From positions 1 through 60,244 of the forward strand of contig CAMBEL010000009.1 in NCBI GenBank assembly GCA_945865605.1: a stretch of 60,244 nt of DNA, read 5' to 3'. Within the stretch, counting starts at the first letter, position 1. Every line of letters begins with the position of its first letter. The position numbers were made by a program, and so were the translations under genes. This DNA is from Bifidobacterium breve (GTDB lineage Bacteria; Actinomycetota; Acidimicrobiia; IMCC26256; JAENVU01). This document shows positions 56,571 through 60,244 of the stretch, piece by piece. The notes beneath the pieces are model-generated. The model saw only the letters and a list, made by a program, of their open reading frames with translations, was not told the DNA's origin and made no database searches.

Positions 56571-57122
56571 TTATTTGATTACCGCTTCGCCTTCACACAA
56601 CTGGAACGGGGCATCGCCGTAAAGAAGTTGGACGCAGGTGCCGGAGATACTGACGAGCCGATAGCTTGTCGCGAAGGTTTCGCCAATGATGACGGTATAC
56701 ACCGTTGAACCGACCTGAATACGGGCCTTGACGACACCGCCTTCTTCGAACACGTCAAGCAAAGCCACGCTCGTACCGCCACTTGGATTCTGATTTACCG
56801 ACGTAGTAGGGCTGGTGCCTCCACCCGTAGCGGGCGTTGTCCCACCCGGGGTTGTGGTCGGAGTGGTCGGCGGTGGCCCTACCGAAACAACTGGCTCGAA
56901 GGGGTCTCGCGTTGCGAACACATCGAACTCTCCCCCTGGAACGGTTGGCTCGCCCGGTGCGGTTGTGGTCGTCGTTGCGCTTGAAACGACCTCTGGAATT
57001 TCTACCGACGACTCCGAAGACGTGTCATCGCCGCCGCTGAAGAAGACGGTGTAAGCAAGAAACAACATGACGATGCCTGCTCCGACAGCGACGATTCTGA
57101 TTAGGCGCTTATTTTCTCTCAT
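56571..57122 (-). CDS. Putative type IV pilus assembly protein, PilP-like
   Basis: 183 aa. One transmembrane helix (about residues 8-28, IVAVGAGIVMLFLAYTVFF) is followed by a Ser/Thr/Pro/Gly-rich linker of about 100 residues. A small beta-rich domain closes the chain (VALLDVFEEGGVVKARIQVG, YTVIIGETFATSYRL). Position after pilO and the topology suggest a PilP-like role in the periplasmic or wall zone, but sequence similarity is weak and no lipobox is present. Its ATG shares a base with the pilO stop. Confidence 0.55.
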   Translation of the reverse strand: MRENKRLIRIVAVGAGIVMLFLAYTVFFSGGDDTSSESSVEIPEVVSSATTTTTAPGEPTVPGGEFDVFATRDPFEPVVSVGPPPTTPTTTPGGTTPATGGGTSPTTSVNQNPSGGTSVALLDVFEEGGVVKARIQVGSTVYTVIIGETFATSYRLVSISGTCVQLLYGDAPFQLCEGEAVIK

Positions 57123-57808
57123 CACGCAGCCTTCGTCGTTGCAGTAGTGGCGGTAGTTGAACTACTCGGAAGGGTCGTGGTGCTAGTCGAACCAGCCGGA
57201 ACCGTCGTAGGCGGCGTATCGGTAACTGGCGCTCCCGGCACAGGCGGGGGAGCACTCCGGGTGAACATGCGTCCAGCAAGTGAGACGTTGAGCGTTGGGG
57301 TGCCAGTCGTACTCGAGGATTGGCCTTCCGTTGTTACTTGCGATTCGGCAGAAATATTGACGCTGTCAACAATCACCAAGCGTTCCAAATCTTCGAGGCG
57401 ATTGAGGTAATCAAGCACCTGGAAGAACCCGCCTTGCACGCTCATCGACACGCTAATTGTGGTGACCGGGATCCCGGCAACCGGTGGTGCAGGTGAGATC
57501 GAAAGCCAGTCGATACCGGACTCCGCAGCTATTACGTTCGCCTGAATAATAAAGTCCGCTAGATCGGGAGTCTCTGGTATCGAGGCGTCGAGGCGTCGCA
57601 ACGTCGCTTGTAGTTGTGGTGCATTGTTCGCGATCTCAGTCAACCGAGAGAGCGTCGCCTCCAGGCTTTGCTTGCGCGCTTCGCCTTGAGCTACGGCTTG
57701 GCGGGCTGTGTCGAGATCACTAGATGCCGGTGCCCAAAGGAGGAAATACCATGCGAGCAGGACGACGACTGCACCTCCTGCAATGGCCACGATCATCGAA
57801 CGTTTCAT
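57122..57808 (-). CDS. pilO: Type IV pilus assembly protein PilO
   Basis: 228 aa bitopic protein. A membrane helix at about residues 5-25 is followed by a coiled-coil (LDTARQAVAQGEARKQSLEA). The PilO ferredoxin-like domain comes next (FIIQANVIAAESGIDWLSIS, MSVQGGFFQVLDYLNRLEDL). The C-terminal 50 residues are Thr/Pro/Ser-rich and low complexity. PilO pairs with PilN in the inner alignment complex of the pilus machine. It overlaps the PilM-PilN gene by four bases. Confidence 0.85.
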   Translation of the reverse strand: MKRSMIVAIAGGAVVVLLAWYFLLWAPASSDLDTARQAVAQGEARKQSLEATLSRLTEIANNAPQLQATLRRLDASIPETPDLADFIIQANVIAAESGIDWLSISPAPPVAGIPVTTISVSMSVQGGFFQVLDYLNRLEDLERLVIVDSVNISAESQVTTEGQSSSTTGTPTLNVSLAGRMFTRSAPPPVPGAPVTDTPPTTVPAGSTSTTTLPSSSTTATTATTKAA

Positions 57809-59589
57809 CGCGTTTCCCTATCCAGGCGAGCCAAACGATCACTCTGGGCAGCAGCCGTGATCACCGCATCCGAGGAGTAACTCACGAGCGAACGTCCTCC
57901 GGAGGTGACAGTCGACGAACTCGTCGGATCTGTTGCCGTTGTCGTAGAGGAGCCCTTAGTCGCTGTTGGAACCCAAAGATCCGTGAAACTCGGAATGGTG
58001 CTGATCCTCTGGATCCACGCCGACACGGATGGAAAGTCGAGACCCATCACAGTGAAAGTCGCGTTGCCGCCAGCGACCGAACCCGCCACGGATTGAACGG
58101 GTGCCGCCGTTCCCGCTGGGGTTAAACCAAAGGTGGATGTTCCTGTGAAAGCAGTCAACCACGAGTCGCTTGGAATTGTTCGCGCTATCTCTTGGAGCAT
58201 CCGCGCCCAGGAGATGTCGGTCGCAACCAGCGTAGAAGTATTTGCTCTCAACACATCGATCTGACTTTGCATTTCCGCGGCGTCCGACAGTGCGGAAATA
58301 CGCGATGTGAGATTTTGGTTCGACGCCTCGATCGCCGCGACCTTGTCGTGCTCTGAAGCGGCGGAAGATTTACGTAGCCACCAAAGACCTCCGAGAAGAA
58401 GCACAAGGACTGCAGCGACGGCTGCACCGGCTCGCAAGAATTTCGCTCGATCTAGAGCGGCGCGCCCCTCGGCTCCGAGCAGGTTGATGCGCTTGCCGGT
58501 AGCTAGACCGCCTAGCGCAAGACCGACAGGAGCCGGAAGGAATGGATCTAGCGCGGGGAGTTGTGACTGAGGAAAGCCGATGTCGCCTATCGCGAAATGG
58601 CTGCGGGGTTCGGCGAGTTCAACCGGCAAGCCGAGGACATTGCGAAGTCGATCCGGCAAGCCGGGCGTGAGCGAGCCACCGCCCGTAAGGGAGATCCGCA
58701 TGAGCCTCGCGGAGTCCGGCTGCGTGCGGTAGTAATCGAGCGAGCCCCGCACTTGCTCAACGAGGTCAGCTAATGGACGATCCATCGCAGCAGCAGCGCG
58801 CTGCGCAAGGTCTGGAGTTGCGCCACTTCCCTGACGCTTTAGCGTCTCAGCCTCATCGACGGTGATCGCCAAGTCCCGAGAGATTGCATCGGTCAGTGAC
58901 CGCCCCGCTACGCCAAGAATCCGCACAAACCGAGGAACTCCGGCCTCGTGGACGGCAACGATTGTTACGCCACCGCCAACGCTGACGATTGCTTCGGCTC
59001 CACCGGAAGCCGCGTCAGAGTCTGACGCCATACGGGAACCAATCGACCGTATGAGCGCCAACGGCACGAGGTCGACCGCGTACACACCAAGTCCAGCAGC
59101 GCGGACAGCTCCAACAATGCTGGCAACCATGTCTTTGTGCACTGCGGCCAATAGAACGCGACTCGTTGCGGTGCCGCTTGCACCGGACTCACCGGTACCA
59201 CTTCCCCTGCGATCACCGGAACTCGTCTCGACAACCTGAAAATCGAGGACTGCTTCATCCAGCGGAATCGGAATCATGTCTTGGGCTTGGAACCGCAGCG
59301 CGCCCTCAAGATCGGAATCGGGCATCGCTTGCAACTCGAAGGTGCGCACGACCACCCTCGGACTCGAAATGCCTACACGGACATCCGCGCGTCCGAGACC
59401 AAGTTCTTTCCAGAGACGTTGGATCGCGGCAGTTACGGCAGCGGCATCTACGACTTCGCCTTCCCGCATCACATCGGGAGGCAAAGCAACCTGGCCAAAT
59501 GTTGTTACACGCGGTTGATCGCCTTGTTCAATTTCCGCGACGCGAACAGCGTTGGTTCCAATGTCGAGTCCGATCAATCGGCGGGCCAT
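57805..59589 (-). CDS. PilM-PilN fusion, type IV pilus alignment subcomplex
   Basis: 594 aa. Residues 1-360 are an actin-like PilM: LIGLDIGTNAVRVAEIEQG is phosphate loop 1, FQAQDMIPIPLDEAVLDFQV follows, and LTGGGSLTPGLPDRL is the adenosine site. Residues 361-594 are PilN: the short motif INLLG, which normally docks into PilM, then a helix at about 386-405, a coiled-coil and a periplasmic-type domain, with a low-complexity Thr/Ser stretch. PilM and PilN are usually separate proteins. The fusion links cytoplasmic ring and membrane parts in one chain. It overlaps the regulator gene by 16 bp. Confidence 0.88.
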   Translation of the reverse strand: MARRLIGLDIGTNAVRVAEIEQGDQPRVTTFGQVALPPDVMREGEVVDAAAVTAAIQRLWKELGLGRADVRVGISSPRVVVRTFELQAMPDSDLEGALRFQAQDMIPIPLDEAVLDFQVVETSSGDRRGSGTGESGASGTATSRVLLAAVHKDMVASIVGAVRAAGLGVYAVDLVPLALIRSIGSRMASDSDAASGGAEAIVSVGGGVTIVAVHEAGVPRFVRILGVAGRSLTDAISRDLAITVDEAETLKRQGSGATPDLAQRAAAAMDRPLADLVEQVRGSLDYYRTQPDSARLMRISLTGGGSLTPGLPDRLRNVLGLPVELAEPRSHFAIGDIGFPQSQLPALDPFLPAPVGLALGGLATGKRINLLGAEGRAALDRAKFLRAGAAVAAVLVLLLGGLWWLRKSSAASEHDKVAAIEASNQNLTSRISALSDAAEMQSQIDVLRANTSTLVATDISWARMLQEIARTIPSDSWLTAFTGTSTFGLTPAGTAAPVQSVAGSVAGGNATFTVMGLDFPSVSAWIQRISTIPSFTDLWVPTATKGSSTTTATDPTSSSTVTSGGRSLVSYSSDAVITAAAQSDRLARLDRETR

Positions 59590-59798
59590 GTTCCACCCTC
59601 CGATCCATCATGCGCTCCGACAACGCGCGTCTCAAGATAAGAAGCGACATCGCTCTCGCGAATGCGCAGGTGCTTACCGACGCGAATCGCTCGGAGTTCA
59701 CCGGATTTGATCAGTCTGTAGACCGTCATTGTTGAAACCCGCATCGCCTCTGCCACCTCACGTGCGGTCAGAAGGTCATGCGAGAGGATCGACGCCAC
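59574..59798 (-). CDS. BldC-like one-domain helix-turn-helix regulator
   Basis: 74 aa. Residues 9-57 (LLTAREVAEAMRVSTMTVYR then LIKSGELRAIRVGKHLRIRE) form the MerR/excisionase-type winged helix found alone in actinobacterial BldC. Streptomyces BldC binds 9-bp direct repeats head to tail. It is the first gene of the pilus unit, overlaps pilM-pilN by 16 bp, and has a promoter with three 9-bp direct repeats upstream. Autoregulation and control of the pilus genes are inferred. An excisionase is less likely, since no integrase or att site is near. The GTG start has GGGAA seven bases upstream. Confidence 0.8.
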   Translation of the reverse strand: MASILSHDLLTAREVAEAMRVSTMTVYRLIKSGELRAIRVGKHLRIRESDVASYLETRVVGAHDGSEGGTWPAD

Positions 59799-59965: not shown

Positions 59966-60244
59966 CTATGACCCCATATATGCGCGCAATAAGGGTTGTG
60001 AGAAACACAGCGCAAACACGGTTCCGGTGGCCAGGAACGGACCGAACGGTACGTGGTCCTTGCGACCTTTGCGCCCCAGCATGATCAACGCCACACCAAC
60101 TATCGCCCCGAGGAGGAAGCCAAAAAAAGTACCCAGGAACACCGCGCCCACCGATACCCAACCGAGCGCGATGCCGAGACAGAACATCAGCTTTACGTCG
60201 CCTTAACCCATTCCGGCTGGCGTAATTAGATGCAGGATAAGAAA
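59966..60244 (-). pseudogene. Prepilin peptidase fragment interrupted by an in-frame stop
   Basis: The minus-strand frame reads GDVKLMFCLGIALGWVSVG and several hydrophobic segments, ending HVPFGPFLATGTVFALCFSQ, as in type IV prepilin peptidases (A24 family). The second catalytic motif should be GMGxGDVKL. Here the x codon is TAA at 60203-60205: the frame upstream reads ITPAGMG, then stop, then GDVKL. The only re-start is ATG at 60187, after the catalytic Asp. Either the gene is broken or a base is wrong. The N-terminal half lies beyond the right edge. Confidence 0.75.

Follow-up and report, generated by a model that had tools for sequence, protein, structure and literature searches.

The window analysed here, the whole 60,244-base contig C9 of a MAG, carries at its right end the last part of a prepilin peptidase gene (PilD, family A24). 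The GxGD motif of this fragment is interrupted by an in-frame TAA that lies 39 bases from the contig edge. We consider it fairly probable that this TAA is a wrong consensus base, or a base from a minor strain, at the contig edge and does not describe the gene as it stands in the population. That the base is unrepresentative is an inference; an assembly-edge error or a rare, recently broken copy is probably involved rather than new biology. An ordinary prepilin peptidase gene would have been truncated by the contig edge, with a wrong or minor-strain base incorporated at the point where the graph of the short-read assembly ended. The basis for this reading is the edge position of the stop, the intact copies in congeners, selection past the stop, a bin in which no second A24 gene was found, and contig edges elsewhere in the assembly that carry mixed variants.

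A peptidase fragment with a stop in its catalytic motif

The peptidase fragment (59966–60244, minus strand; last 92 codons plus stop) reads from 60244 to 59966 as FLILHLITPAGMG*GDVKLMF..., with the asterisk marking the TAA, and ends at the gene's own stop at 59968–59966. The first-pass annotation had noticed an ochre codon within the GxGD motif, and this was confirmed at 60205–60203 on the minus strand (GMGxGD; surrounding residues ...ITPAGMG*GDVKLMF...). It had also correctly recognised which family the gene belongs to, its motif and the adjoining pilus genes. Its description of the frame as open on both sides draws, for the upstream side, on only 13 codons, because the window is a complete contig and the TAA lies so close to its edge.

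In the genome search the read-through fragment scored 26.5 bits against the Peptidase_A24 profile (PF01478), equal to the cut-off; hmmscan gave 26.3 bits, slightly under it. These scores are low because the fragment spans only profile positions 59–103 of 104. Since the fragment is 98% identical in protein sequence to an intact 259-codon congener gene, the frame is real and not due to chance. Scores at or near the cut-off, together with this identity to a clear member, place the fragment in family A24; it lacks an unbroken GxGD motif, as the TAA occupies position x in the consensus. The N-terminal domain (A24_N_bact, PF06750) is present in the congener's intact peptidase and would here fall past the contig edge; its best match in the bin (E 0.157) was under the cut-off. 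The position of the first catalytic aspartate is likewise upstream of the edge, outside the fragment.

The GxGD motif of A24 prepilin peptidases carries the second catalytic aspartate. A product ending at the TAA would thus lack this residue. The only ATG-started frame of at least 60 aa listed 3′ of the TAA in the peptidase frame (73 aa; 59966–60187, minus strand) could not be an active enzyme, because it is without the GxGD motif. With neither product functional, a real TAA would therefore be null. Of the features of a pseudogene, an interrupting stop is present, in the consensus only. The prepilin peptidase family has been called GXGD-type diaspartyl proteases (PMC2947513), and intact PilD in Pseudomonas cleaves the prepilin leader, enabling assembly (PMC13170266).

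The neighbouring genes lie on the same (minus) strand. A PilM-like pilus assembly protein (57805–59589) matched PF11104 (E 1.9e-41) over residues 7–359 of 594, and its C-terminal third, which has no Pfam match, is probably PilN-like. It is followed by a PilO-like pilus assembly protein (57122–57808; PF04350, E 2.1e-10) and a 184-aa protein without a Pfam match (56571–57125). A small helix-turn-helix protein (HTH_17; 59574–59798; PF12728, E 3.3e-16) sits between the peptidase and the pilM-like gene and overlaps the start of the latter.

To speak of a peptidase lost next to an intact pilus operon, as had been proposed, was an overstatement, since the contig breaks within the peptidase gene, and a search of the bin, which has 115 contigs totalling 2,152,670 bases and is 86% complete, recovered neither the pilin nor the peptidase N-terminal half, and pilC only in part. 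Contig C113 terminates inside a T2SSF (PilC-like) gene. The right edge of C9 gave only chance-like matches of ≤23 bases to other contigs of the bin, and no dovetail. Prepilins and pilus ATPases persist in the bin. T2SSE matched five times above the cut-off and T2SSF seven times, and the only two N_methyl prepilins found are both on C44.

Relatives encode an amino acid at the stop position

A search of 61 genomes yielded 59 match rows, one of them the window's own. Internal stops were absent from 57 of the other 58; the single exception was a weak match in G026 (E 1e-5) with a TAG inside. A close relative was G001, a Lake Baikal Acidimicrobiia congener whose contig (G001:C101) corresponds to SHUZ01000005.1 of the MAG Acidimicrobiia bacterium Baikal-deep-G23 (100% match; loci L011/L040/L155). 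Its peptidase shares 98% protein identity across the 92 codons and has the same pilM-like neighbour, but it is intact, with a leucine codon at the TAA position and two prepilin-like genes upstream. In a second congener, G002, the peptidase is intact and 70% identical. The scan of genome contigs, which may omit such records, contained no same-species record, and no solved structures of close relatives were found by sequence at E 0.001. The fragment therefore resembles PilD of family A24 (PF01478 with N-terminal PF06750, both matched by the congener copy) in its C-terminal GMGxGDVKL motif and adjoining pilM/pilO genes, and differs in comprising the C-terminal part only, in the TAA within the motif, and in an N-terminal half that was not found in the bin.

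For the residue at x, 49 loci were compared and 48 matched; leaving out the window itself and four loci not covering the position gave 43 readable relatives, including seven duplicates of the same record. Phenylalanine was present in 28, leucine in five, glycine in five, methionine in four and tyrosine in one, and none of the 43 had a stop, glutamine, glutamate or lysine. CAA, GAA and AAA, which the first-pass annotation had offered as the codons that a single base change would restore, are therefore not likely to be ancestral.

Purifying selection past the stop

Compared with G001 over 276 bases, the fragment has 11 differing sites in 10 codons, of which eight are synonymous, one is F/V and one is the stop. 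Within the part 3′ of the TAA, seven of the eight changed codons are synonymous, against ∼27% expected (P 0.00065), and this comparison revealed none of the further decay or relaxed selection of a pseudogene. By these substitutions, the codons after the TAA still show purifying selection, so the stop, if real, would be very recent. In the last 41 bases of C9 there are three differences from G001, two of them within one leucine codon and synonymous; the C9 edge is thus not garbled.

Contig edges in the assembly

As a control for edge effects, all 230 contig ends of the bin were compared, which gave 25 dovetail pairs, 15 exact and 10 imperfect. The 13 exact overlaps of exactly 149 bases suggest that the contigs come from a de Bruijn assembler run with k close to 149. 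Disagreement between the overlaps in 10 of the 25 pairs shows that mixed variants or copies of repeats are present at the contig edges. Four of the ten imperfect pairs share the end C40R and resemble copies of a repeat, and the pair C37R/C107L, with 17 synonymous changes and one nonsynonymous change, resembles real variation; the gapped pair C40R/C104L was left out of this classification. Stop differences occurred only in C38R/C107R, a pair without a clear coding frame. Overall, most of the differences in the overlaps resemble real variants and not random errors.

One clear coding frame was found in 117 of the 230 ends, and 16 of these (C9R itself not among them) had a stop less than 100 bases from the edge. 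In none of the 16 was there a clearly coding frame beyond the edge stop, and no general excess of frame-breaking stops was found at the 230 ends. As frame-breaking edge errors are uncommon, a simple error story is weakened. A consensus error had been among the options offered in the first-pass annotation.

Contig breaks were also compared in 29 relatives, these being the other-genome match rows for which the locus and contig extent were returned. The break was closer on the upstream side of the peptidase gene in 22 of the 29 (two-sided P 0.008), and a break within 3 kb was seen upstream in 15/29 compared with 4/29 downstream. This fits a hard-to-assemble pilin region.

Genetic code and competing explanations

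TAA is an ordinary stop in this genome, where it terminates 86 of 400 long coding frames (670,617 bases scanned). Reassignment of TAA was rejected on this count and because TAA made up only 15 of 107 flagged same-frame stops, many of which may simply mark junctions between genes or lie in shadow frames. The five flagged stops in the window interior were checked one by one by reading their translations. Two proved to be gene junctions, one a gene end and the others shadow frames, so that no comparable interrupted gene was found there.

The readthrough option raised in the first-pass annotation is without support. Purifying selection continuing in frame past the TAA speaks for a functional enzyme made at a low level by readthrough or recoding, but TAA terminates genes as above, no suppressor tRNA was present in the 43 sequences scanned (part of the genome), and the sense codons in relatives mean that there is no conserved recoding site, as programmed readthrough would have. 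We regard readthrough or recoding as extremely improbable, and it is just as hard to credit that the TAA is real and fixed and that the sole peptidase for all pilin systems of this species depends on occasional readthrough within the catalytic motif; were that so, it would throttle piliation. The further proposal, that a second A24 enzyme, unrelated or unbinned, has taken over from a broken gene, gains some room from the 86% completeness of the bin. However, a profile search of the bin found no other A24 gene, and both congeners, of which one is 98% complete, likewise gave a single A24 gene, which makes such an enzyme very unlikely.

The main rival to the edge reading is a TAA that is real, namely a nonsense mutation of very recent origin, whether fixed or still segregating, by which the peptidase is inactivated. 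We rank this second, as a possible though less probable explanation. The TAA stands in the consensus, de Bruijn contigs normally require repeated k-mers, and frame breaks are not in general excess at other edges. The ungarbled last 41 bases and overlap differences that are mostly variant-like count against an edge error. Pilus lesions, one of them in PilD, were selected by a pilus-targeting phage in Pseudomonas aeruginosa (PMC13170266). Set against a real null are the lack of any other lesion or of relaxed selection past the TAA, the retention of the peptidase's substrates beside the sole A24 gene found, and the chance placement that it needs within 39 bases of a contig edge. PilD loss can also carry a high cost, as in Synechocystis, where photoautotrophic growth is blocked and no suppressors arise (PMC8546353).

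A wrong or minor-strain base at the edge remains the favoured explanation. If 40 bases are counted at each of the 230 contig ends, these zones amount by arithmetic to ∼0.4% of the 2.15 Mb bin, and the TAA falls in such a zone, whereas no comparable interrupted gene was found in the window interior. A single A24 gene was found while prepilins, T2SSE and T2SSF genes persist. The intact G001 and G002 copies, the synonymous changes past the TAA, the discordant dovetails and the upstream contig breaks in relatives count towards the same explanation. A stop less than 40 bases from a MAG contig edge, with the other half of the gene missing, should not be taken as gene loss. If the TAA were real, pilins would go unprocessed, and the affected cells would lose type IV pili, together with any further filament that depends on this enzyme; attack by pilus-binding phage is one possible selective setting. 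A stop both real and common would mean a wild lake population losing its sole pilin-processing enzyme, perhaps under phage pressure, with the other machinery kept. In the library searched, no paper combined a prepilin peptidase with a premature stop codon, a pseudogene and type IV pili.

Repeated segments at contig ends

A repeated segment, ∼94–100% alike between copies, was observed at the ends C4L, C17R, C40R, C60R, C66R, C88R and C104L (loci L076, L129, L152, L175, L181, L202 and L218). A gene present in several copies, at which the assembly breaks, is its probable source. A second family of contig ends comprised C8L, C30L, C53L, C57L, C57R, C84L and C115L (loci L080, L102, L168, L172, L198 and L228); some of its copies differ from one another by an insertion of ∼28 bases.
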